A DNA stretch of 47,927 bases. Source: a virus. Below the pieces are notes generated by a model. That model was not told the DNA's origin. It worked only from the letters and a program-made list of their open reading frames with translations, and ran no database searches. The stretch is taken from the IMG/VR virus record IMGVR_UViG_3300027720_000010, positions 1-47,927 of that record, one strand, 5' to 3'. Shown one piece after another: positions 601 through 47,927 of this stretch (positions are counted from its first letter, which is position 1; every line of letters starts with the position of its first letter). A program made the position numbers and the translations under genes.

Positions 601-780
601 ATGAAAAAAATACTTATATCTTTTCTTATGATTGGTTTGTTTGGATGCGCTAGCGTTAATGGGCTCACTTCTTGTGACTCAAAGACCGAATGTGTAAAAC
701 AAACTGAGTGTTGTGGTATGGACCACTGCGATAAAACAAAATGTGAAGGACAATGTTGTGACAAATCTTGTTGCGGTTAA
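601..780 (+). CDS. Cysteine-rich lipoprotein
   Basis: This is a short 59-aa gene. Residues 1-16 form a lipoprotein signal peptide: a KK n-region, a hydrophobic stretch and the lipobox LFGC with lipidated Cys16. The mature part is tiny and has 10 further cysteines, including CC pairs at 37-38, 52-53 and 57-58 and spaced C-x4-C and C-x3-CC patterns, plus acidic and basic residues. This looks like a metal-binding or disulfide-knotted surface peptide. No known family is recognised. A rho-independent terminator follows at 803-833. It is probably expressed as a single gene. Confidence 0.75.
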   Translation: MKKILISFLMIGLFGCASVNGLTSCDSKTECVKQTECCGMDHCDKTKCEGQCCDKSCCG

Positions 781-802
781 TTGTTTTTTGTAAACTAATT
801 AA

Positions 803-833
803 AACCCCATCTCTAATAAAGGTGGGGTTTTTT
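803..833 (+). terminator. Rho-independent terminator
   Basis: Stem AACCCC/GGGGTT followed by a run of Ts, directly downstream of the Cys-rich lipoprotein gene. Confidence 0.8.
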
Positions 834-843
834 ATTTTTAGTA

Positions 844-850
844 TATTTAT
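844..850 (+). promoter_or_regulatory. TATTTAT promoter-like motif
   Basis: TATTTAT ends 5 nt before the ATG at 856. Confidence 0.5.
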
Positions 851-855
851 CATAT

Positions 856-1548
856 ATGAAAAAGATTGAACAATATCGTGAAAGATTCTATATGTTAATG
901 GAATCTGAAATTGGCGATGTTAAACCTTTGATTAATGAACAACAATGTACGTTGTCTAATTCGGATATTAACTATATTACAAACGAAGTTATTAAATATT
1001 TTTCTCCTGAGGTTTTGAATGATGATATAGATATGATGACTAGTGGGTTTAAAGAAAAAATTACCTCTGACTTGGTTATCGGAATATGGGATAATAAAAT
1101 AAATGAAATAAAAACATCATTAAAAGCCCCATTTGAAAAATATATTTCTGACTTGGTTAGTGGAACCTTTAGGGGTGGGTTATTTGATATTAATGGGTAT
1201 CTATATGACATGTTAAATAAAATATTTGTACCATTGATTTCTGAATACGATTCTTCTTGGACATACAAGGGGGCCGCAAAAATAGCGGTGAGTAGTAACA
1301 ATATTGGTGAAATACAATCAAAAACAAAAAATGTTTTTTTGGAAATAATCGATAGATTTCTTGTTTGGTTTAAACTGACAATTTTCAAAGTCCCGCTTAG
1401 AGCAATTAAAATTGCAAAAGATTTTAAAAAATGTGACGTTAAGTCTAATCCAAAACCATTTGTGAATATTCCAGATGTTGAGAATTTTAAATCAGGAAAT
1501 GGGTGGATGATATCATCGCTTAATGATAGAATTGAAGACGCAGCGTAG
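856..1548 (+). CDS. Leader-bearing putative virion protein
   Basis: The product has 230 aa. Its N-terminus is a short amphipathic helix (KKIEQYRERFYMLMES) ending at PLINE-Q. This matches the pattern seen in many genes here: a leader of 10-30 residues closing with a hydrophobic residue, any residue, then Glu. In T4, the prohead protease cuts after such I/L-x-E motifs, so the leader may target this protein into the capsid. The remainder (helices around 60-100, W/F-rich centre, basic segment 'RFLVWFKLTIFKVPLRAIKIAKDFKK' region at about 165-195) has no recognised domain. The start is 5 nt after a TATTTAT motif. Confidence 0.8.
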   Translation: MKKIEQYRERFYMLMESEIGDVKPLINEQQCTLSNSDINYITNEVIKYFSPEVLNDDIDMMTSGFKEKITSDLVIGIWDNKINEIKTSLKAPFEKYISDLVSGTFRGGLFDINGYLYDMLNKIFVPLISEYDSSWTYKGAAKIAVSSNNIGEIQSKTKNVFLEIIDRFLVWFKLTIFKVPLRAIKIAKDFKKCDVKSNPKPFVNIPDVENFKSGNGWMISSLNDRIEDAA

Positions 1549-1589
1549 ATTTATTCTTAACTACTTTTTTTTCTGAAAATTATTTCTTA

Positions 1590-1597
1590 TATTTATT
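1590..1597 (+). promoter_or_regulatory. TATTTATT promoter-like motif
   Basis: Ends 3 nt before the ATG at 1601. Confidence 0.45.
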
Positions 1598-1600
1598 TTT

Positions 1601-2035
1601 ATGGAAGAAGAAAATAATATTGGTTTAACTGCGTGGGATAATTTAACCACAACAACTAATGGTGATTACTTAATTGCGGGAGGTAATATTTTATATAATT
1701 CATACGCCACATATAGTTCTCCATATGATATGGATTTTAAACTACCTGATATTTTTTTAAAGGTTATTAAATTAATGATTCCTGAAATTAAGAATGTCAT
1801 TGTACGTAACTCTTCTTTGAATATAGATTCATTGAATCAAATTGGAGAATTAACAATTAACTTGTTTATTGTTTTGGATGAAACATCTTCTGGTGATAAG
1901 AACTACGAAGAAAGAATTCGTGATTTGTTTAAATTGACACTTCCAAACATTAACTATGTTACGTTAAATGTTAAACAATTTGATTCTAATAGTAATAAAA
2001 AATTTGATGAAATCCTTAAACTTTTTGGTAAATAA
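1601..2035 (+). CDS. Hypothetical protein
   Basis: The 144-aa product has an N-terminal T/N-rich segment, then alternating predicted strands and helices: ELTINLFIVLD (strand), RIRDLFKLTL (helix) and YVTLNVKQF (strand). This resembles the strand-helix layout of the other small genes of this phage (16332, 16973). No catalytic motif or membrane segment is visible. It is the first gene of a tight run 1601-2599. Confidence 0.75.
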   Translation: MEEENNIGLTAWDNLTTTTNGDYLIAGGNILYNSYATYSSPYDMDFKLPDIFLKVIKLMIPEIKNVIVRNSSLNIDSLNQIGELTINLFIVLDETSSGDKNYEERIRDLFKLTLPNINYVTLNVKQFDSNSNKKFDEILKLFGK

Positions 2036-2043
2036 TTTTTAAT

Positions 2044-2250
2044 ATGAATATAGAATTTGAAACCCCCCACCTTGTATTATGTATCAGAAATTATTATGGA
2101 ACAATGGAAGATGGTCGTGAATTTACCATCATATCTCATAGTAACTATGGTAGTGTATGGATTGAAGACATTGAAACTGATGATGAATTAACCGAAGAAG
2201 AACTTGAAGAAATTAGAACAAGTTTCTATCAAAATGTGGATATTGGATAA
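2044..2250 (+). CDS. Small acidic hypothetical protein
   Basis: The product has 68 aa and starts 8 nt after the preceding stop. It has a beta-rich N-terminal half (GREFTIISHSNYGSVWIEDI) and an acidic helical tail rich in Glu and Asp. No family is recognised. The spacing suggests co-transcription with 1601 and 2261. Confidence 0.7.
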   Translation: MNIEFETPHLVLCIRNYYGTMEDGREFTIISHSNYGSVWIEDIETDDELTEEELEEIRTSFYQNVDIG

Positions 2251-2260
2251 AAAAAATAAT

Positions 2261-2599
2261 ATGAAAAAAGAAAAATCAAAAATGTCAGCACCAAAGAAAG
2301 AAAAAAAGAAAAAGGTAACTGAAGAAGTTGCGGTTGAAACACCAAAGACAATTTCAGTTAAAATGGTTGAGTATTACAACACTATGGTTGTGCGAGAACC
2401 AGTTCAAATTAATGTTGCGGATTATCCTGAACTAAACGGGATGTCAGAAGAAGAAATGAAAGACTATATTAAAGATAATTGGTCTGACATGAAATCAACA
2501 AATGAAGAGTGGTACGACTCCCTTTATGACGAATGTATGCAATCGGATGTAATGAGAGAAAAGATTACAGGTGAAGAACAAGAATGTTATTTTGATTAA
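2261..2599 (+). CDS. Lys/Glu-rich hypothetical protein
   Basis: I chose the ATG at 2261, after the stop of the previous gene, giving 112 aa; an in-frame upstream start at 2204 would overlap the previous gene by 47 bp. Residues 1-25 are strongly basic (MSAPKKEKKKK), and the rest is acidic, with a helical segment MSEEEMKDYIKDNW and two Cys near the C-terminus. The basic tail could bind nucleic acid, but no family is recognised. A terminator follows at 2604-2629. Confidence 0.7.
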   Translation: MKKEKSKMSAPKKEKKKKVTEEVAVETPKTISVKMVEYYNTMVVREPVQINVADYPELNGMSEEEMKDYIKDNWSDMKSTNEEWYDSLYDECMQSDVMREKITGEEQECYFD

Positions 2600-2603
2600 A
2601 TTT

Positions 2604-2629
2604 AAAACCCCTCGAAATGAGGGTTTTTT
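2604..2629 (+). terminator. Rho-independent terminator
   Basis: AAAACCCCTCGAAATGAGGG followed by TTTTTT. The T-run merges with the TTTG box of the next promoter. Confidence 0.85.
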
Positions 2630-2657
2630 GTTTCTATGAAAATGTTGCGTATATTTG
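2627..2657 (+). promoter_or_regulatory. Bacteroidota-type promoter TTTG-N19-TATATTTG
   Basis: TTTG at 2627-2630 and TATATTTG at 2650-2657 are 19 bp apart, an exact match to the Bacteroidota housekeeping consensus (-33 TTTG, -7 TAnnTTTG). It lies just before the ATG at 2663, so the transcript would have almost no leader. Confidence 0.8.
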
Positions 2658-2662
2658 TGATA

Positions 2663-3126
2663 TGAAATTATCACCCGAACAACTTGTTAGAGTCGAAGAA
2701 ACATTGAAGGACTTTATATGTCTTATTCCAAGGTACCTTGAGGTTAAAGGTAACGATAAGCTTTATGATATGTTTCTATCGAGAAACCGTAACCCACTTT
2801 TTGATATGACAAATACAAAGTTTTGGGAGACGGGGTTACTATCCAATGGGGCGAAGTATGGTGGTGGTAAAAAAGTTAAAGACCACTACATTCCCCGTAA
2901 AATTGCTATGGGTTTTATCATGGACACTCTTGTTTTAAATCCAAACATGTCTGTTGATGATTTTATTGTTTTGTGTAAAAAATATGCATCCACTGTTACA
3001 CTAACTGAAGAGGAACACAACCTTGTTACAGTCAGAGCTAAGAACACAGGAAGACCTAACTATGAATTTTATTCTTCTTGTGGAATATTTATTGAAGGTA
3101 TTGATGGTTTAATTATTAATATTTGA
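2663..3126 (+). CDS. Hypothetical protein (host-type promoter)
   Basis: The start is placed at ATG 2663 (MKLSPEQLVRV) because a perfect host-type promoter sits at 2627-2657. An in-frame start at 2617 would lie inside the terminator and promoter. The product has 153 aa, with an N-terminal helix, a central WETGLLSNGAKYGGGKKVKD stretch and DHYIPRK, then a helical region. DHY followed by a basic patch is vaguely nuclease-like, but no complete catalytic set can be seen. Function unknown. Confidence 0.75.
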
Positions 3127-3130
3127 CACT

Positions 3131-3856
3131 ATGAAAAATTTGAAAGAATCTATTAAAAACATTGTAAGAGAATTTGCGATTCAAAAATCAACTTCTTTTA
3201 AAATTACTGAAATTAAATATTTTTCGCCTAATGGAAGAAAAAATGTTCCAAATGGACATATTATGCAAAAAGGTGGGTTTATAAAAGAGTGTATTGATAA
3301 CAGTAAGAAATTCAAAACTGAAAATTATCAGTTTTTGATAAACGAAGATTTGGAGATTGTTGAAGCAATTCACGACCAACAGTACGGACTATCTGATTAC
3401 AGAGGTGGAATTATAACCTTCTCTACTGAGATTAATAGTCTTGACATTAGTGATATAAAAATTCTTAATTGGTTTAAGAAAAAATATAAAAGTATTATCA
3501 ATAAGTTTTTCTCAAAATCAAAACTTAATTCAGTAATTGGTAAATTTAATTCTACCGAAGATAAAAAATTGGGCTCTGAAACAGTTGACGATTATATTGG
3601 GGCATTTTCAATTGGTAATTTTTTCTCTGGAAGATATATTGGTGACAATGGAAAGGTTTTCGATGAGAGTTCTTTGACTATTGAAATTAATGGTATCTCA
3701 TCTAAGGGTTTAATTTATTTGGCTGAAGAAATTGCAAGGGAGTTTAATCAAGAAACTGTTTTGGTTAAAGATTTAAATAAAAATAAAATATTTTTGGTTA
3801 GTCAACTTAAGGGTGAATATTACGATTTAACAGATATAAATAAAAAATCAATTTAA
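3131..3856 (+). CDS. Hypothetical protein with leader-like N-terminus
   Basis: The product has 241 aa. The N-terminus MKNLKESIKNIVREF is an amphipathic helix ending in I-V-R-E, a weaker match to the leader plus [LIV]-x-E pattern of other genes here. The middle has a basic helical segment (FKKKYKSIINKFFSKSK), and the C-terminal third is beta/alpha (LTIEINGISSKGLIYLAEEIA, ETVLVKDLNKNKIFLV). No known domain is recognised. It begins 4 nt after the 2663 gene. Confidence 0.75.
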   Translation: MKNLKESIKNIVREFAIQKSTSFKITEIKYFSPNGRKNVPNGHIMQKGGFIKECIDNSKKFKTENYQFLINEDLEIVEAIHDQQYGLSDYRGGIITFSTEINSLDISDIKILNWFKKKYKSIINKFFSKSKLNSVIGKFNSTEDKKLGSETVDDYIGAFSIGNFFSGRYIGDNGKVFDESSLTIEINGISSKGLIYLAEEIAREFNQETVLVKDLNKNKIFLVSQLKGEYYDLTDINKKSI

Positions 3857-9324: not shown

Positions 9325-9342
9325 TTTTTTTACTTTTCATAA

Positions 9343-9350
9343 TATTTATA
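9343..9350 (+). promoter_or_regulatory. TATTTATA promoter-like motif
   Basis: 9 nt before the ATG at 9360. Confidence 0.5.
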
Positions 9351-10844: not shown

Positions 10845-10857
10845 CTAAATAAGAAGA

Positions 10858-10865
10858 TATTTATA
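10858..10865 (+). promoter_or_regulatory. TATTTATA promoter-like motif
   Basis: 12 nt before ATG 10878, facing away from the divergent 10342 gene. Confidence 0.5.
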
Positions 10866-10877
10866 AAAAAAGTTTTA

Positions 10878-11921
10878 ATGAAACATTTATTAAAAGAAGA
10901 ACTTAATCAAATGAAATACCTTTTTGGGTATGAAAGAGGTAAAGTTATTTCAGAACAAAATTTATTAACAGAAGATTCTAAAACACTTGATTTATTTGAG
11001 AGTACTTTGCCTGAATTTTGGGGTGATGATTTTATATACGGAACTACTTTTTCTGAAGAATCAATAGGCGGAATGGTCTATTATATTGCAACAGAACCCG
11101 ACGGAACAAAGTATTATTTTTATTATTACTCTAGTGGTAATCCTGATAATACATACTTTAAATTTGTGCAATATCAACACAATGAGGATATTTTAACTGC
11201 AGATAACCAACCACAAATACAGTCACAGGGTCAAGAACAGGGTGGGGGAAAGTTAACAACTGACAAAGCTCAGGAAATGAAAAAGAAGGCTTCAAAGATA
11301 CTTCAGGAACTTATAGATAATGCGGGAGATAGTCCGGCAATAGGTTTTGACTTTGGAATAGCAAAGGGTCAAAAGAAAACAAAGTGGGAAGAAAGTAAGA
11401 AAGAGCTTGATGCGACTCCAGATGATGATTTATGTTCATCAGATAACCAAGCTAAAGTTAAATCGAATCTTATAAGTGCTGAGAAAGATATGGGTAAAAA
11501 CGGTAAACACCTAACAGATAATGAAAAGGAACTGTGTCAAGAATTGATAGACATGTTAAAAGAATTCCCACAATATTGTAAAACAACAGGAGGAGAAAGT
11601 AATCCAATTCAAGGGTCAACACAATCTGATTTGGGTAACGCCCCTAAGGATATAATTAGTCAAATAAAAGAAGTTGAAGATGATATCTTAAATTCAGTAA
11701 CTAAAAAAGATGTTAAAGATGAACTAACTAAGGAATTAAATACTGATAGAGATAATAAATCTATTGGAAAAAGTACAAATCAAACTATTGCATATAATAA
11801 AGCTCAAGATAATTTGTTCAAGAAAAAAAACAAAAAAGAAATCGAATTTAAAGGTTTTATTAATTTAATGACGAGGTTAGATAATGGGACTTACTATACG
11901 ATATATGGACCTATATCATAA
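10878..11921 (+). CDS. Leader-bearing large putative virion protein
   Basis: The product has 347 aa. It has the second leader style of this phage: LLKEELNQMKYLFGYERGK then VISE-Q, with an LL-x-E...M/L-x-G core and ending at I-S-E. The PPK2 gene (12988), the 26804 gene and the amidase gene (34053) share this layout. A W/Y-rich section follows (about 45-95), then a Gln-rich linker, a Lys-rich helical section and a region with several Cys. No enzyme motif is recognised. A bidirectional terminator follows. Confidence 0.85.
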   Translation: MKHLLKEELNQMKYLFGYERGKVISEQNLLTEDSKTLDLFESTLPEFWGDDFIYGTTFSEESIGGMVYYIATEPDGTKYYFYYYSSGNPDNTYFKFVQYQHNEDILTADNQPQIQSQGQEQGGGKLTTDKAQEMKKKASKILQELIDNAGDSPAIGFDFGIAKGQKKTKWEESKKELDATPDDDLCSSDNQAKVKSNLISAEKDMGKNGKHLTDNEKELCQELIDMLKEFPQYCKTTGGESNPIQGSTQSDLGNAPKDIISQIKEVEDDILNSVTKKDVKDELTKELNTDRDNKSIGKSTNQTIAYNKAQDNLFKKKNKKEIEFKGFINLMTRLDNGTYYTIYGPIS

Positions 11922-11953: not shown

Positions 11954-12784
11954 TTATATTTCTTGTAATTGTTCTTGTTTCATTAACTCATATGCTCTTG
12001 CAAGACGAGTCATTCCAATTCCTCCACCAAAACGAGGGAAGAAATCAAATGATAAAAACTCCTCAAGTTCTTTTTCAACTCTTTCTTTTCCAAATAATTC
12101 AAAAAGTTTATTGGCATATCCACCATTTTCAATTGTGTAGAACATTTCTTTCATTTTTTCCACATCACAACTTCTTTCGGCTGAACCAATTGTTTCTTGA
12201 CCGTACATAATCACATCAACTTTATTGAAGATTCCATTTGTTCCGTGTTGCATGTTCCAAAATGGGTTGGTTCTTAGTGGGAAATGTTGGAGAGATACTA
12301 CCGAACCTTTCTCTTTCCACATTCTCTGTTCGTGCTCATCTTCCAAAATAGATACTCCACCATATTCAGCACATACTCCTTCATATGTTTTATTAATAGG
12401 TTCATCAAAACCAAGATACTCAAGTAGTTCTTCTTCTAACTTTAACAAATCTTTCATTGTTCCCTTTGATTCAAATTCAAACATTGGGAAGATTAATTCG
12501 TGACGACCAGGAATTGGATTTTTTTCTTGACGATAAGAAGTTGATATACAATAAACTCCTTCCCACTCAGGATTTTTCAATAATTCATATTCTAGCCACA
12601 TTTGTCCTGTTTGTGGTAATGGCCAAATTTCACCCTTATACTCAAATGTTGTGATTGAGTGTGGATTTTCACATGCGGCAAGAATTGATAATCTTGATTG
12701 TGTTGGAACTTCTTTAAATCCTTTTGATTGGAAGAATGTTCTCATTTTTTGAACTAACTCGTTGTAAACTTCTGTGTTTTTCAT
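11954..12784 (-). CDS. Class II aminoacyl-tRNA synthetase-like catalytic core (AspRS/AsnRS-type)
   Basis: The product has 276 aa. Class II motif 2 is seen as TSYRQEKNPIPGRHEL...PMFEFE (about 82-106), with Arg84 and Glu87, and motif 3 as GGGIGMTRLARA (253-264). Between them lies GQETIGSAERSCD, typical of the Asp/Asn/Lys subgroup. The N-terminal OB-fold that reads the anticodon is missing, and the protein is half the size of AsnRS or AspRS. It therefore resembles stand-alone paralogues such as asparagine synthetase A or other aminoacyl-adenylate-forming relatives. The substrate cannot be told. It may activate Asp/Asn-like amino acids for something other than normal tRNA charging. Motif 3 has TR in place of the usual DR or ER. 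Confidence 0.85.
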   Translation of the reverse strand: MKNTEVYNELVQKMRTFFQSKGFKEVPTQSRLSILAACENPHSITTFEYKGEIWPLPQTGQMWLEYELLKNPEWEGVYCISTSYRQEKNPIPGRHELIFPMFEFESKGTMKDLLKLEEELLEYLGFDEPINKTYEGVCAEYGGVSILEDEHEQRMWKEKGSVVSLQHFPLRTNPFWNMQHGTNGIFNKVDVIMYGQETIGSAERSCDVEKMKEMFYTIENGGYANKLFELFGKERVEKELEEFLSFDFFPRFGGGIGMTRLARAYELMKQEQLQEI

Positions 12785-12987: not shown

Positions 12988-14100
12988 ATGAGAAGCCTGT
13001 TAACAGAGGTAGAAAGAATTAGACAAATGATTGGTCAACCATTAAATGAAATGGCAAAACCATCTGAGCAGTACATTAAATCTATACAGACAATTTTAAG
13101 CTCCAATGGTCTTTTAAAAAAAGAGGCCGAATCACTTCTTAATCAAATTATTGAACTTGCCGATGACCAAATTATAAATTTTGATTTGTTAGAACACGGA
13201 GTTAGAAACACATTACTTAAAAAAGGTGATAAGTATAAATCTATTGTTAAGTATTTTGAAAAAGTTCTTAGTTCTTTACAGAATAGAGAAGCAGACTCAT
13301 ATGAAATTGAGCCCGAACAAGATGATTATAGCTTTGAACCTGAGGAACCATCAATTTTAAAGAAAAAAGTATTCAGAAAAGAATTATATTATTTACAAGT
13401 GGAACTTCTTAAACTCCAAGAATGGTTAATGGAGACAGGAAAAACGGTTATAATTGTTTTTGAAGGAAGAGATTCGGCAGGTAAGGGCTCAACTATTAAA
13501 AAATTCACTGAAAATCTTAATCCAAGATATTTTAACATAATTGCTCTTGGTATTCCATCTCCTGAGGAAAGACAAGATTGGTTTGGAAGATATAAAAAAT
13601 ACATAAAACCTGGTATGATTAACTTCTTTGATAGAAGTTGGTATAACAGAGGTCTTGTTGAGCCTGTTATGGGATATGGAACAGAAGAAGAGTATGAACA
13701 TTTTATGGAGAACGTTGAAAATTTTGAAAATGAGTTAGTTGAGAAAGGAGATTATCTATTTAAACTATGGTTTTCAATTGATAAGGAGACTCAGGCAAGA
13801 AGATTTGAGATGAGACAAAAATCTCCACTAAAATATTGGAAATATTCCCCAAATGACGCTAAAATGCAAGATATGTGGGAAAGGTTCACAGAATTTAAAC
13901 AAAGATTATTTGATAAGACATCTACAATAAACCACCCTTGGATTGTATTGGATGCGAATGATAAAAAAGTATCGGGATTAAATGCAATTAGATATGTGTT
14001 ACAAAACATCCCTTACGAAAATAAAAATGAAGAGTTATTGGATAAGGAATTCCCTGAAGCAATGACCGTTTTAAAACCTGAATCAAATGAAGATAATTGA
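12988..14100 (+). CDS. ppk2: Polyphosphate kinase 2 (PPK2) with capsid-leader N-terminus
   Basis: The product has 370 aa. Residues about 125-355 form a complete PPK2 domain: Walker A GRDSAGKGS (160-168), the FFDRSWYNRGLVEPV segment (213-227) with Asp-Arg, and the lid region RRFEMRQKSPLKYWKYSPND (271-290). PPK2 uses polyphosphate to phosphorylate nucleoside mono- or diphosphates, feeding (d)NTP pools without ATP. The first 21 residues, RSLLTEVERIRQM then IGQPLNE-M, match the capsid-leader pattern of this phage, and a helical 100-aa extension follows that ordinary PPK2 lacks. I infer that the enzyme may be packaged in the head and delivered with DNA. It overlaps the next gene by 14 bp. Confidence 0.93.
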   Translation: MRSLLTEVERIRQMIGQPLNEMAKPSEQYIKSIQTILSSNGLLKKEAESLLNQIIELADDQIINFDLLEHGVRNTLLKKGDKYKSIVKYFEKVLSSLQNREADSYEIEPEQDDYSFEPEEPSILKKKVFRKELYYLQVELLKLQEWLMETGKTVIIVFEGRDSAGKGSTIKKFTENLNPRYFNIIALGIPSPEERQDWFGRYKKYIKPGMINFFDRSWYNRGLVEPVMGYGTEEEYEHFMENVENFENELVEKGDYLFKLWFSIDKETQARRFEMRQKSPLKYWKYSPNDAKMQDMWERFTEFKQRLFDKTSTINHPWIVLDANDKKVSGLNAIRYVLQNIPYENKNEELLDKEFPEAMTVLKPESNEDN

Positions 14101-26765: not shown

Positions 26766-26781
26766 TTAGTGTTTTTAATGA

Positions 26782-26789
26782 TATTTATA
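26782..26789 (+). promoter_or_regulatory. TATTTATA promoter-like motif
   Basis: 14 nt before ATG 26804. Confidence 0.5.
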
Positions 26790-37364: not shown

Positions 37365-37389
37365 AAAAAGGGGATTACTCCCCTTTTTT
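37363..37389. terminator. Bidirectional terminator
   Basis: AAAAAAAGGGG ATTA CTCCCCTTTTTT between the convergent genes 36552 (+) and 37375 (-). Confidence 0.85.
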
Positions 37390-39423
37390 CTTTCTACTCT
37401 TAGTTTTTTTCTCTGTTAGTTGTTCTTCACAAATAACATTCTCCTCCTCCATTCTGATTGTGTACGGTTTTTCTTCTTTGATGTTTCCTTTGAGCACTTC
37501 ATCAGAAATATAGTCTTCTAATTTTTCTTGAATTGCTCTTTTAAGTGGTCTTGCTCCGTATACTTCGTCAAATCCAACTTTGGAAACAAAATCAATTACA
37601 GATTGGTCAAATGTAATGTTAAGTTTAATACCGGAAAGTCTATTAGATAATTTGTTAATTTCAACCATAACAATCTTTTTAACATCCTCATTCCCCAATG
37701 TGTTAAACACAATAATTTCATCGAGTCGGTTGATAAACTCAGGTGCAAAATAGTTTTTGAGTTCCTTATTTAACATTTGTTTTTTGAGTTCTTGGTCGGC
37801 ATAAACATTACTTGATTTACCAAAACCAATACCTGCACCAAAATCTTGCATTTTTTTAACCCCAATGTTAGATGTCATAATGATAAGACAATTTTTGAAG
37901 TTGATTTTTCTTCCAAAACTATCTGTCATGTAACCTTCATCCAAAAGTTGCAAAAGTGATGAGAAGATGTCTTTGTGAGCCTTTTCAACCTCGTCAAATA
38001 ACACCACCGAATAAGGTTTTGTCTTAACCTGTTCGGTTAGTTGACCCCCTTCCTCATATCCAATATAACCAGGAGGAGCTCCAATAAGTCTTGAAACTGA
38101 GTGTTTCTCTTGAAACTCACTCATATCAACACGAATCAGATTTTCTTCGCTACCAAATATTTGTTTTGCAAGTTCCTTAGCAAGTAATGTCTTACCAACA
38201 CCTGTTGACCCAAGGAATATAAATGAACCGATTGGTTTGTTTGGGTCTTTGATACCAAGTCTATTCCTACGTATAGATTTTGCAATTGTTTTGATTGCCT
38301 CAGGTTGACCAATTACCGACTTCTCTAAACTTTCTTCCAAATTTATCAAATTCTTTGTATCATCCAAAGAAAGTTTGTTTACAGGAATTTTGGTCATAAT
38401 CGACACTACATCGTAAACTAGTTCGATTGGGATATCCTTTCTTTTTGTTTGGAGGTCTTGCTCAAATTTATTTCTTTCAATATCCAACTGAGACAATACT
38501 TTCTTTTCTCTATCTCTAAGTTGAGCCGCCATTTCATAGTTTTGTTTTTTAACAACGAGAAGTTTTTCTTCACGAATTTTTTGAGATTCTTTTTTAAGTT
38601 CCTCAATAATCTCAGGATTCTTAACATCCACTTGAGCTCTTGCCCCTACCTCATCCAAAATGTCAAAAGCCTTATCAGGGAATTCTCTGTCTGTAATATA
38701 ACGGTCGGCAAGTTCAACACAAGTTTGAAGAATTTCATCTGTATAATTTACTTTGTGGTGAGCCTCATACTTATCCTTCACATTGTTCAAGATTTGTAAA
38801 GTTTCCTCCTTGGTTGAAGGTGAAACAATTACCTTTTGGAATCTTCTGTCCAATGCCCCGTCCTTTTCAATGTTCTTTTTAAACTCATCCAAAGTGGTTG
38901 CTCCGATACATTGAATCTCTCCGCGAGAAAGTGCTGGCTTTAAAATGTTAGATGCGTCAAGTGAACCTGAGGCGTTACCTGCCCCAACGATTGTATGAAT
39001 CTCATCAATAAAAAGAACCACATTTGGATTATTTTGAATTTCTTCAATAATAACTTTTAATCTCTCTTCAAATTGACCCCTATATTTTGTGCCAGCAACA
39101 ATTGAATTTAAGTCCAAAGACAAGATTCTTTTTTCTAAAAGGTTTCTTGGGCAATCCCCTTGGAATATCTTCATTGCAAGTCCCTCAACAATTGCGGTTT
39201 TACCACAACCTGGTTCACCAATAATAATTGGATTATTTTTCTTTCTACGAGAAAGAATTTGAGCGATACGAATAATTTCTTGTTCTCGACCAACAACAGG
39301 GTCAAGTTTATTTTCTTCAGCTAATTTAATTAGGTCTCTTGAAAAGTTATCCAAAACAGGAGTCTGACTATCGGTAGATTGTCTTGGTTTATTTTTCTTT
39401 CCGTCATCCATTGAATCTGTCAT
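37375..39423 (-). CDS. clpC: ClpC/ClpA-type AAA+ unfoldase without N-domain
   Basis: 682 aa with two AAA+ domains: Walker A1 GEPGCGKT (69-76), Walker B1 VVLFIDE, Walker A2 GSTGVGKT (405-412), and a second Walker B VVLFDEVE. A short M-domain with a UVR-like motif (NYEMAAQLRDREKKV) lies between, as in ClpC. A GIGFG loop at 531-535 carries the IGF tripeptide that docks on ClpP. The usual N-terminal adaptor domain of about 145 residues is missing; the protein begins with a short charged tail. It would unfold proteins and feed them to host ClpP with altered substrate choice. A Lys-rich tail follows. Confidence 0.93.
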   Translation of the reverse strand: MTDSMDDGKKNKPRQSTDSQTPVLDNFSRDLIKLAEENKLDPVVGREQEIIRIAQILSRRKKNNPIIIGEPGCGKTAIVEGLAMKIFQGDCPRNLLEKRILSLDLNSIVAGTKYRGQFEERLKVIIEEIQNNPNVVLFIDEIHTIVGAGNASGSLDASNILKPALSRGEIQCIGATTLDEFKKNIEKDGALDRRFQKVIVSPSTKEETLQILNNVKDKYEAHHKVNYTDEILQTCVELADRYITDREFPDKAFDILDEVGARAQVDVKNPEIIEELKKESQKIREEKLLVVKKQNYEMAAQLRDREKKVLSQLDIERNKFEQDLQTKRKDIPIELVYDVVSIMTKIPVNKLSLDDTKNLINLEESLEKSVIGQPEAIKTIAKSIRRNRLGIKDPNKPIGSFIFLGSTGVGKTLLAKELAKQIFGSEENLIRVDMSEFQEKHSVSRLIGAPPGYIGYEEGGQLTEQVKTKPYSVVLFDEVEKAHKDIFSSLLQLLDEGYMTDSFGRKINFKNCLIIMTSNIGVKKMQDFGAGIGFGKSSNVYADQELKKQMLNKELKNYFAPEFINRLDEIIVFNTLGNEDVKKIVMVEINKLSNRLSGIKLNITFDQSVIDFVSKVGFDEVYGARPLKRAIQEKLEDYISDEVLKGNIKEEKPYTIRMEEENVICEEQLTEKKTKSRKKKGE

Positions 39424-44446: not shown

Positions 44447-46198
44447 ATGTCTTTAACAAGAGAACAGGTTTTATTGGAATATGGGAAGTGTATGAAGAGT
44501 ACACCTTATGCATTGAAAACTTATTTACAAACTTACGATAATACCGTATCAAAATATGTTCCTCTTGAATTATTTCCAGACCAACAAACTTTGATTGAGG
44601 ACTATGAAAATTTTAATGAAAACATTGCTTTAAAATATCGTCAAGCTGGAGTATCAACCGTAACGGCCGCTTGGGCATCGAAAAAACTAGCATTTGCAAA
44701 GAAAACAAAACCTGAAAAGATTTTGATTATTGCAAACAAACTTGACACTGCCGTTGAAATGGCGAACAAAGTTAGAGGATTTACTGAACAATGGCCATCT
44801 TGGACAGGTATTGGGTTTTCCGCTGAAAAGAATTCACAAAGACACTTTAAATTAAATAATGGATGTGAAGTTAAGGCAGTTGCAACATCAAAGGATGCTC
44901 TCAGAGGTTATACTCCAACCATATTAATATTTGACGAAGCCGCATATATCGAAGCTGATTCTGACTTTTGGGCCGCTTGTATGGCATCACTTTCAACAGG
45001 AGGTAAGGTAATTGTTATATCTACACCAAACGGATTTGACCCAATATATTATGAAATCTATGACCAAGCTCTTCGTAACATGAATGAGTTTAAGGTTTCG
45101 GAGATGGTATGGTTTAAAGACCCAAGATATGCGAAAGATTTATCTCTTATAAAAGTTAATGATGTTATCCACTTTTATTTGAATAGAGATGAATATCCTG
45201 ATGTGGAATCAATTGATTATTCTACAATACCATTTAAAGAAAGAAATTTTGAGGATGTAAAATCACTCATTAATCAAGGGTATAAACCTACTTCTTCTTG
45301 GTATGAGTCGATGGTTAAAAAATTAAAGTACGACAGAAGAAAGGTTAACCAAGAATTGGAGTGTAAATTCCTTGGGTCTGGTGACAATGTATTTGATGCT
45401 GAAATGCTCCAGAACTATAGAGAGAATATGATAAAGGAACCAACCAATAAAATGATGGGAGGTTCAATTTGGATTTGGAAGGAGCCAGTTATTGGTCACA
45501 AATATATAATGGGAGTTGACGTTAGTCGTGGAGACTCTGAAGACTTTTCATCTATACAGATTATTGATTTTAATGAAAGGGAACAAGTGTTTGAATACGT
45601 TGGTAAAATTCCTCCTGATACACTTGCTGAGGTCGGTTATAAGTGGGCAAATATGTATTCAGCTTTTATTGTTATCGATATAACGGGTGGAATGGGAGTT
45701 ACAACGGCAAGAAAACTACAAGAATTAGGATATAAAGATTTATATGTTGATGGAGTTGACCATTTTAATAAATGGAAATATGACCCAAAAACTGCGGATA
45801 AAATACCAGGAATAAATTTCAACAACAAAAGAGTTCAAATTATTGCGTCTTTTGAGGAACATTTGAGACATGGGTTTAAAATTTATTCATCAAGACTTTT
45901 AAATGAAATGGGGACCTTTATATATATTAATGGAAGGCCTGACCACCAAAAAGGTCATCACGACGATTTAATTATGTCTTTATCAATGTGTACATATATT
46001 GCAGAGTCTTCATTTTCTTCAGTATCAAAGGTAACACAACACGCAAAGGCAATGCTTGAGTCATGGCAAGTTTCATCAAATACTAAAAGACATTCGGATT
46101 ATTTTAATCCAATTATTACAGATAATAAACAAGTTAATAATCAGCCTACAAAAAATGATTATATGAACTATAATTGGTTGTTTGGAGGGCTAAGATAA
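44447..46198 (+). CDS. Terminase large subunit (TerL, T4 gp17-like)
   Basis: 583 aa, normal length. The ATPase domain has a Walker A variant KYRQAGVST (64-71), like the SRQ-type loops of T4 gp17, and Walker B ILIFDEAAY with Asp163-Glu164, then a coupling motif VIVISTPNG. The nuclease domain has acidic residues in MGVDVSRGDSEDF (Asp358), FIVIDITGG (Asp411) and GHHDDLIMS (Asp506-507), which form an RNase H-like metal site. It pumps DNA into the prohead and cuts it. The T4-like TerL points to headful packaging. Its stop overlaps the next ATG by 1 bp. Confidence 0.97.
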   Translation: MSLTREQVLLEYGKCMKSTPYALKTYLQTYDNTVSKYVPLELFPDQQTLIEDYENFNENIALKYRQAGVSTVTAAWASKKLAFAKKTKPEKILIIANKLDTAVEMANKVRGFTEQWPSWTGIGFSAEKNSQRHFKLNNGCEVKAVATSKDALRGYTPTILIFDEAAYIEADSDFWAACMASLSTGGKVIVISTPNGFDPIYYEIYDQALRNMNEFKVSEMVWFKDPRYAKDLSLIKVNDVIHFYLNRDEYPDVESIDYSTIPFKERNFEDVKSLINQGYKPTSSWYESMVKKLKYDRRKVNQELECKFLGSGDNVFDAEMLQNYRENMIKEPTNKMMGGSIWIWKEPVIGHKYIMGVDVSRGDSEDFSSIQIIDFNEREQVFEYVGKIPPDTLAEVGYKWANMYSAFIVIDITGGMGVTTARKLQELGYKDLYVDGVDHFNKWKYDPKTADKIPGINFNNKRVQIIASFEEHLRHGFKIYSSRLLNEMGTFIYINGRPDHQKGHHDDLIMSLSMCTYIAESSFSSVSKVTQHAKAMLESWQVSSNTKRHSDYFNPIITDNKQVNNQPTKNDYMNYNWLFGGLR

Positions 46199-47927
46199 TG
46201 GGTTTAAATAGAAGACCAAAAACAGGTAGAAATTTTGACGGTTCAAAATTGTTAATTAATAACAATGGTATTAAGACCGTGCAACCAAAAATTTATGATA
46301 CAAATAAATCGGTAAATAATGTACCAGGAATAGTTGCAACACCGCCACCTACTCCAAGCATAACACCAACAAATACTATTACACCATCAATAACACCAAG
46401 TAATACTCCTACGCCATCAATAACACCAAGTAATACTCCTACGCCATCAATAACACCAACTAACACTCCAACAACCTCAATAACCCCCTCAATTACACCA
46501 ACGAATACACCAACCGCTTCTGTAACAAAGACACCTACAAATACACCTACCCAAACTCAAACCCCCACTGTTACTCCAAGTATTACACCAACAAATACTC
46601 CAACACCATCTGTAACTAAAACAGCAACACAAACTCCAACTGCCACTCAAACCCCTACCGTAACCCCAAGTATTACGCCAACAAATACTCCGACACCATC
46701 TGTAACAAAAACTCAAACTCCGACACCATCTGTAACAAAAACTCAAACTCCGACATTGACTCCCACCCCCTCAGTTACAAAGACAATAACTCCAACAGTT
46801 ACTCCCACCGTAACAAGAACACAAACACCAACCGTAACAAGAACACAAACACCAACAAATAGCGTAACTCCAACAAGTAGTATAACTCCAACTGTAACTC
46901 CAACAACCTCAATAACTCCTACAGTAACTCCAACAACCTCAATAACTCCTACAGTAACTAAAACTAAAACTCCAACTCCCACAGTTACAAAAACTCCTCC
47001 ACCTTGTGATTGTTACGTGGTTAATAACCCTTCATTTATTGAAAAACCAACAGTTTTCTTTGTAAGATGTAACGGGTCTAACAGTAGTTTTAATGCTGAA
47101 AATGGAGACAATTATTTCTGTTCTAGAACCTATCCTGTAGTTGGTGGTCCTGTAACTATAACATATTCTGGAGTCTGCTCGTCATTATGTGCCCCTCCTA
47201 CACCATCGGCTACTAAAACCCCAACCCCAACTTTGACTCCAACTAAAACTCCAACTAAAACTCCGACCCAAACTCCAACACCTTCAATAACTCCAACAAC
47301 AACACCGACAACAACACCAACACCTTCGGTAACTGAAACTAAAACTCCGACCCCAACAACAACAAAAACCCCAACAACGACACCAACTGCAACAGTAACA
47401 ACAAGTTGTTCTAAACCAGGTGGACTCACAACAATAGTAATTGGTTCATCTTGGTCAACCGCAGGGGGGGGATTTACTCAAGATATTTATGACTTACCAG
47501 ACGATGCAACCGCTTGCACCGCTTATAGTAATTATCAGTCTAATGCGGGGGCAACTTCTGCCGGACTATTTATTACAACGGCTTCTTTTGCATCTGGAGA
47601 AAGAGTGTACGATGATGGGACAACCTCATGTTTTTGCACAACACAAAATGGTAGATATTGGGTTAATTTAGTGAATCCGTCTATATTACCAAACCAATCA
47701 GATGGTGTTTATGTTGTTTTAATCACGGATTGTGTTATCCAAACAATATCAACTTGTGCTCCTACTACTCAAACAGCAACTGCGACTCCAACATCTACAC
47801 CAACACCAACATTAACTCCTTCTATAACCTCGACAAATACACCTACAGTTACTCGAACCCAAACTCAAACGCCAACAGTGACTCAAACGCCAACTCAAAC
47901 TCAAACGCCAACAGTCACAAGAACTCA
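46198..47927 (+). CDS. Giant Thr/Pro-repeat protein, 3' end outside window
   Basis: A stop-free frame runs from ATG 46198 (overlapping the TerL stop by 1 bp) to the window edge: 576 residues and still open. After about 50 ordinary residues there are two long mucin-like blocks (about 50-270 and 325-400) of short units such as SITPTNTPTPSVTKTQTPT, with nearly every residue Thr, Pro, Ser, Ile, Val or Gln. They alternate with folded modules rich in Cys and aromatics: one at about 270-325 (CDCYVV...CSSLCA) and one at about 402-520 (CSKPGG...CFCTTQNGRYWVNL...). A third repeat block is beginning at the end. This plan suits a long fibre or adhesin with stiff, perhaps glycosylated, stalks. Confidence 0.9.
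   Translation, partial: MGLNRRPKTGRNFDGSKLLINNNGIKTVQPKIYDTNKSVNNVPGIVATPPPTPSITPTNTITPSITPSNTPTPSITPSNTPTPSITPTNTPTTSITPSITPTNTPTASVTKTPTNTPTQTQTPTVTPSITPTNTPTPSVTKTATQTPTATQTPTVTPSITPTNTPTPSVTKTQTPTPSVTKTQTPTLTPTPSVTKTITPTVTPTVTRTQTPTVTRTQTPTNSVTPTSSITPTVTPTTSITPTVTPTTSITPTVTKTKTPTPTVTKTPPPCDCYVVNNPSFIEKPTVFFVRCNGSNSSFNAENGDNYFCSRTYPVVGGPVTITYSGVCSSLCAPPTPSATKTPTPTLTPTKTPTKTPTQTPTPSITPTTTPTTTPTPSVTETKTPTPTTTKTPTTTPTATVTTSCSKPGGLTTIVIGSSWSTAGGGFTQDIYDLPDDATACTAYSNYQSNAGATSAGLFITTASFASGERVYDDGTTSCFCTTQNGRYWVNLVNPSILPNQSDGVYVVLITDCVIQTISTCAPTTQTATATPTSTPTPTLTPSITSTNTPTVTRTQTQTPTVTQTPTQTQTPTVTRT
46345..46995 (+). repeat. Degenerate ACT/CCA low-complexity repeats (TPT stalk 1)
   Basis: Degenerate 12-36 bp repeats (for example encoding PSITPTNTPT, PSVTKTQTPT and PTVTPTTSIT) within the 46198 gene. 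Confidence 0.9.
47197..47400 (+). repeat. Degenerate repeats (TPT stalk 2)
   Basis: A second T/P-rich block after the first folded module; a third starts near 47760. Confidence 0.85.

Follow-up and report, generated by a model that had tools for sequence, protein, structure and literature searches.

The window, i.e. the whole stretch of DNA that was analysed, comprises 47,927 bases and is the entire virus record; a reading frame that runs off the window thus also leaves the record. Towards its end, the plus strand carries the gene of a T4 gp17-like terminase, TerL (44447–46198; PF03237, E 1.3e-13; phrog_5989 terminase, E 2.1e-22), followed on the same strand by the 5′ part of a candidate arm gene (46198–47927), which is incomplete at the record end. 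The stop codon of TerL (TAA, 46196–46198) and the start codon of the arm gene (ATG, 46198–46200) share one base in the motif TAATG (46196–46200), as had been noticed in a preliminary description of the sequence. The identical overlap was present in the loci L002 to L014, and a translational coupling of the arm gene to TerL is plausible from this junction. The same description had claimed a stop-free frame of more than 576 amino acids leaving the window: from the start at 46198, 576 codons are open (46198–47925) and the frame reads to the record end at 47927, so at least 576 codons were confirmed, and neither a frameshift nor a stop was detected within the window copy. Since the record ends inside the frame and the C-terminal part is missing, relatives were used for comparison. 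The four architecturally closest relatives are complete and have 1509–1673 amino acids, which makes the attribute 'giant' plausible for the window copy.

The encoded protein has a modular layout. It starts with a conserved anchor peptide (amino acids 1–29; 46198–46284, plus strand), recognised by a profile (E 5.8e-17), by alignment and by its position, which in all contigs that extend far enough is between TerL and portal gene, and continues with a short joint between anchor and stalk that varies in sequence among relatives (amino acids 30–44; 46285–46329). Three threonine/proline-rich stalks follow, all on the plus strand: stalk 1 (46330–47004) with Thr or Ser at every second residue and tandem repeats of 12 to 90 bp, stalk 2 (47191–47406) and stalk 3 (47761–47925), which ends with the record. 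Between them lie module 1 (amino acids 270–331; 47005–47190) with a CxC[YW] motif and module 2 (amino acids 404–521; 47407–47760) with a YWVN-type motif, again on the plus strand. The described alternation of T/P blocks with cysteine-rich modules was thus recovered, with module edges close to the 270–325 and 402–520 given before. As blocks of biased composition, the T/P stretches cover amino acids 45–272, 330–408 and 518–576, limits that reach a few residues into the modules (the first block ends at 272, module 1 begins at 270).

Threonine and proline make up 46 % of the arm frame, compared with at most 16 % in each of the 74 other stop-free stretches of at least 100 amino acids in the record. 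Thr and Ser occupy alternate residues of the stalks (173 versus 13 by parity), and the Thr and Pro codons of the frame are mixed synonyms. Together with homologues of the same start and layout in other contigs, these features argue against a chance reading frame. The stalk DNA shows tandem arrays whose periods are 12, 18, 24, 30, 42 and 90 bases; slippage by multiples of six bases would preserve the Thr/Ser register. A fully extended chain measures about 0.31 nm per residue, and at this value stalk 1 alone would span about 70 nm. The term 'mucin-like' used for these stretches is adequate as a statement on the Thr/Pro-rich composition, and nothing beyond composition is meant by it here.

Both cysteine modules recur in relatives. 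A profile search retrieved 16 copies of module 1, and module 2 was present in 14 copies in six anchored proteins. Each module has six invariant cysteines, which suits disulfide formation and an oxidising, outside location. A structure prediction for the modules had been proposed, and module 2 folded confidently: the AlphaFold2 model based on 13 window and locus sequences of the 14 copies had a pLDDT of 94.1 and a pTM of 0.85 and presents six strands and one long helix (an earlier model from seq­uences of seven copies, pLDDT 61, was set aside for it). The comparison of this model with the PDB retrieved no entry at E 0.001 or better; the sole VIA-align row, 8vhx_F with Z 2.2, an rmsd of 4.0 and 69 aligned residues, carries little meaning. 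The best match in BFVD was an uncharacterised protein of Virus NIOZ-UU157 (E 0.009, TM 0.65 by query length). The predicted fold of module 2 has therefore no convincing known match, which leaves its newness unproven, and no binding activity can be read from it. For module 1, the PDB search gave nothing better than E 0.45.

The C-terminal parts of the relatives are diverse. The tip of L073 contained DUF285 (E 3e-178) with PKD, that of L007 LRR_4 (E 8e-5), that of L010 a DUF5122/Rax2 propeller and that of L045 a weak Laminin_G_3, all by Pfam; leucine-rich repeats were weakly present in L003 and L016, and no Pfam family was found in L002, L005, L009 and L020 at E 0.01. The closest architectural relatives of the window copy, L168, L169, L005 and L002, carry module 1, three copies of module 2 and then an end with PKD-like and LRR-like parts, both called by eye (Pfam was without match for L002, L005 and L168). 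Judged by the layout of these relatives, the window copy likely ends in a similar way; DUF285 and LRR themselves were found in the relatives L073 and L007, and the window copy stops before its C-terminal part. The earlier suggestion of stiff spacers for adhesion modules gained support from these architectures, as the stalks of relatives lead to LRR-like, BspA/DUF285, PKD and lectin-like domains and also separate the cysteine modules.

The TerL–portal slot was surveyed in the best 80 of 599 stretches related by TerL; more relatives exist. With the window, 70 of 81 loci had the anchor peptide after TerL (50 distinct proteins) and 11 had none. The slot held a short form of 39–64 amino acids in 35 loci and an extended form of 126–1673 amino acids in another 35, L006 counted among them, and was empty in 11. 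These counts do not represent independent events, because the loci contain near-duplicates from overlapping samples. Without L006, there were 29 distinct extended proteins (126–1673 amino acids, the window copy ending at 576), 23 of them with a T/P block and six without (L010–L014, L027). In L006, anchor codon 24 is an in-frame TGA (anchor at 11752–11823) where the window has Gly, and the frame after it stays open for more than 1,300 codons; this TGA may be a sequencing error, a natural truncation to the anchor-only form or a case of recoding.

A tblastn search over 157 loci, including the window and leaving out its own copy L001 as well as the Immutovirus record L082, assigned the order TerL–anchor–portal to 136 loci and TerL–anchor to one, the window, the only anchor copy without a portal gene since its record ends. 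Among the 20 loci without a tblastn anchor, inspection of the frames revealed the peptide in nine, and 11 were empty. These numbers, too, refer to loci and should not be taken as independent phages. A second scan, seeded by the anchor instead of TerL, kept 80 of 113 relatives, and all 80 show the TerL–anchor–portal context. The genes after the slot were typed in L025 as portal (phrog_213, E 2.6e-63), maturation protease (E 3.1e-44) and major head protein (E 3.6e-66). Within the stretches covered, 17 of 20 records had a single copy of the anchor and three had none. A second anchored gene per genome was also sought in the 20 records and not found, one extra match with E 0.05 being taken as spurious.

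Flavobacterium phage immuto_2-6A, whose TerL (27 % identity) ranks near the head of the listed phage matches, has gp20 directly after TerL with 29 bases between them. The anchor profile gave nothing convincing (one match with E 0.05) against this phage and six other TerL-related phage records. TerL itself reached at most 27.8 % identity among the 30 matches listed of 2,398 in phage records. A search of 50,697 phage records with one arm protein and two further T/P proteins gave no match, and the L007 tip obtained one weak LRR match there. The anchor profile found no PDB chain at E 10 or better, and 24 anchor members matched no Pfam family, both being searches of weak power with a short query.

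The short forms are basic, with 6–11 Lys and Arg versus 1–4 Asp and Glu in 20 distinct proteins. Their pN/pS of 0.49, compared with 0.076 for TerL (17 pairs), comes from few sites near saturation and suggests moderate constraint only. As selection on them is modest, the case for an arm is weakest where it concerns the function of the anchor by itself. Being basic, the short forms could alternatively serve in DNA binding or in packaging. The anchor would then be a cofactor of packaging or portal assembly, its stalk-and-tip extensions being passengers with little display function. We judge this improbable. The basic short forms stand alone in 35 of 81 loci and the gene lies between TerL and portal, which speaks for such a cofactor, but the absence of the anchor from 11 of 81 loci indicates that it is not essential, and LRR, DUF285 and propeller tips as well as cysteine-rich modules are ill-suited to a purely internal role. 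The gene has accessory status, being absent from those 11 loci and from three of the 20 records.

Pairs of closely related phages show how the slot contents differ. The left flanks of L023 (659 amino acids) and L025 (39 amino acids) share 97.6 % DNA identity over 659 bases that end near anchor codon 17; the right flanks share 95.4 % identity over 2,480 bases, from 23 bases ahead of the portal gene onwards. The stretches between the flanks, of 1,965 and 82 bases, respectively, have no detectable similarity. The pairs L027/L037, L018/L037 and L022/L023 behave likewise: their left edges fall at about codons 23–43 and their right edges 28–37 bases before the portal gene. In L063, L074 and L073, near-identical anchors are followed by different stalks, and the lengths vary (343, 477 and 1023 amino acids). 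A simple deletion was considered as the source of the short form and rejected, as the 82 dissimilar bases in L025 represent a replacement and not a clean loss. On a TerL tree from a quick method with 64 different rows, the states absent, short and long required at least 14 changes, short and long 10, and present and absent four. Recombination would be the natural reading of these cassette differences. Reverse transcriptase PF00078, looked for as sign of a diversity-generating retroelement, was found in none of 15 records, most of them fragments.

T/P stalks are not specific to the TerL–portal slot, as the same phages have them on proteins without the anchor as well. T/P matches were present in 10 of 20 records, and in six of these (G001, G002, G004, G007, G012 and G015) some lay outside the anchored gene. 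The non-anchored T/P-stalked proteins had 334–1435 amino acids among the frames read out, one (L166) with module 1, and G002 carries stalks in other genes together with a short form as its own anchored gene. The T/P stalk is a type of spacer in wide use across the lineage. L166 encodes at 736–3573 a virion-like protein of 946 amino acids with a C-terminal papain-type peptidase (PF00112, E 4e-7; phrog_16701, E 2e-53), the N-terminal part of which resembles a T/P-stalked protein of 974 amino acids in L163. The resemblance of such other stalked proteins to virion proteins would agree with an arm protein that is a tail- or baseplate-attached fibre with an unusual gene location, and tip types like the ones observed are known in phage receptor-binding proteins. 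This attachment is unlikely in our view: the gene lies among those for terminase, portal, protease and major head protein, and no recognised tail gene adjoins the slot.

The composition of the stalks had led to the proposal that the host O-glycosylates them at D-S/T motifs. In Bacteroidota, O-glycosylation is periplasmic and follows a D-S/T-x consensus. The proposal was not supported: the 576 amino acids of the window frame contain no D-[ST]-[AILVMT], with DTN at amino acid 34 as their sole D-S/T dipeptide, and the N-termini lack an export signal, none of 49 distinct ones reaching a mean hydropathy of 1.6 over 19 residues in a rough test. The accessible part of PMC10450907 gives no motif for Bacteroidota O-glycosylation. 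The window has a GC content of 32 % and Shine-Dalgarno-like sites before 3 of 23 starts, versus 13 % at random positions. A Bacteroidota-type promoter pattern matched nine times versus 3.1 expected, with 1 of 100 shuffles as high. A Bacteroidota host thus fits the window phage; a host search in bacterial genome contigs gave 10 pattern matches with no relative among them. An export of the arm protein, followed by glycosylation by the host and activity on the host surface during infection, would agree with the Thr/Ser/Pro-rich composition, and the promoter matches and few Shine-Dalgarno sites point to the fitting type of host, but the missing motif and missing export signals make this very unlikely. 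Other features of the window genome were recorded in passing. The sequence ATATTTATA occurs at 15 sites versus 2.6 expected (e.g., 9342–9350, 10857–10865 and 26781–26789), several times about 13–24 bases upstream of an ATG on the same strand, and may be a phage promoter element with very short leaders in a genome poor in Shine-Dalgarno sites. Genes for a polyphosphate kinase 2 (12988–14100; PF03976, E 2e-72) and a short class II tRNA synthetase (11954–12784) were present, as was one for a ClpA/ClpB-like double AAA+ ATPase (37375–39423; phrog_4871 ATP-dependent protease, E 1e-236).

Alternatively, glycosyltransferases of the phage itself could modify the stalks and yield a sugar-coated virion arm, an idea that would be compatible with the arm reading and appears doubtful. 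GT2 exceeded the cut-off in 12 of 15 lineage records (G001, G002, G004, G005, G007 and G010–G016) with two to five matches each, compared with two of seven control phages with two matches each. However, the GT2 count falls as the T/P matches rise (rank correlation −0.60 over 15 records, mostly fragments), GT2 occurs also in stalk-free records, and the substrates of these enzymes may be DNA or host sugars.

We consider it rather probable that the frame encodes the N-terminal part of a modular arm on the virion surface, in which an anchor docks, a stalk spaces and an exchangeable tip binds. The first residues, about 30, would be a peptide that docks on the head or at the neck/portal region, with the T/P-rich stalks as extended spacers and the cysteine-stabilised modules plus the C-terminal domain as the exposed binding part. 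The TerL–portal slot would be the site of exchange: it is bounded by conserved sequence, the 5′ end of the anchor and about 23–37 nt ahead of the portal gene, and recombination would swap the stretch between these edges, giving stalk-and-tip, anchor-only and empty forms. Virion presence, docking partner and binding function of the arm protein are deduced here from genes and their arrangement. A virion-displayed binding arm is favoured by the position among head genes, the missing export signal, in keeping with cytoplasmic assembly, the accessory nature, the cysteine-rich modules, the adhesion-type tips and the frequent replacement. The six of 29 distinct long forms without a T/P stalk and the anchor without Pfam or PDB match count against it, as do the basic and moderately constrained short forms, the T/P stalks in other genes of these phages and a module 2 that lacks a convincing structural match. 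A wider reading, to which we give somewhat less than even credence, regards the peptide of about 30 residues as a universal virion dock in an uncultured T4-like lineage, on which whole arms are exchanged as a plug-in display.

If the anchor docks on the virion, large phages could alter a surface arm and leave the particle as it is, and a fast-changing adhesin would be linked to a fixed slot among head genes. In the plug-in reading, near-identical phages would present different adhesins or none. The natural pairs L023/L025 and L027/L037, with and without an arm, make its role comparable in closely matched phages, and a minimal docking peptide could be of use in displaying proteins on phage heads.

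A search of open-licence literature revealed no account of an arm cassette between TerL and portal, nor one of T/P stalks in phages of this kind, which is no proof of absence. Several known systems share parts of the design. Large phages and bacteria have BspA/DUF285 and LRR surface proteins, and the L073 tip is also a DUF285 domain; the Vibrio jumbo phage pir03 encodes ORFs of the DUF285 and BspA families (PMC7765460), in the available description of which neither a TerL-linked anchor nor a T/P stalk appears. Hoc of T4 and the fibres of phi29 are head appendages thought to aid attachment, those of phi29 being dispensable for infectivity (PMC7602432, as far as accessible). The proposed arm would resemble them as a head appendage. 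The phi29 fibres are coiled coils, and according to the part of PMC5292684 available, Hoc has Ig-like domains and is thought to bind via its C-terminal part; neither coiled coils nor Ig-like domains were seen in the proposed arm. Its conserved N-terminal peptide and variable remainder are clear, and in a head decoration protein they would correspond to a capsid-binding part and an exposed part. The same portion of PMC5292684 describes T5 pb10 with an N-terminal capsid-binding part, a proline-rich extended linker and an exposed C-terminal domain. In contrast to the arm, with its anchor of about 30 residues, a stalk block of up to about 230 residues and variable tips, pb10 has 164 amino acids, a folded helical N-terminal domain and a short linker, and no sequence relation between the two was found. 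By analogy of design, and as far as that source describes it, T5 pb10 is the closest known layout to the putative arm.
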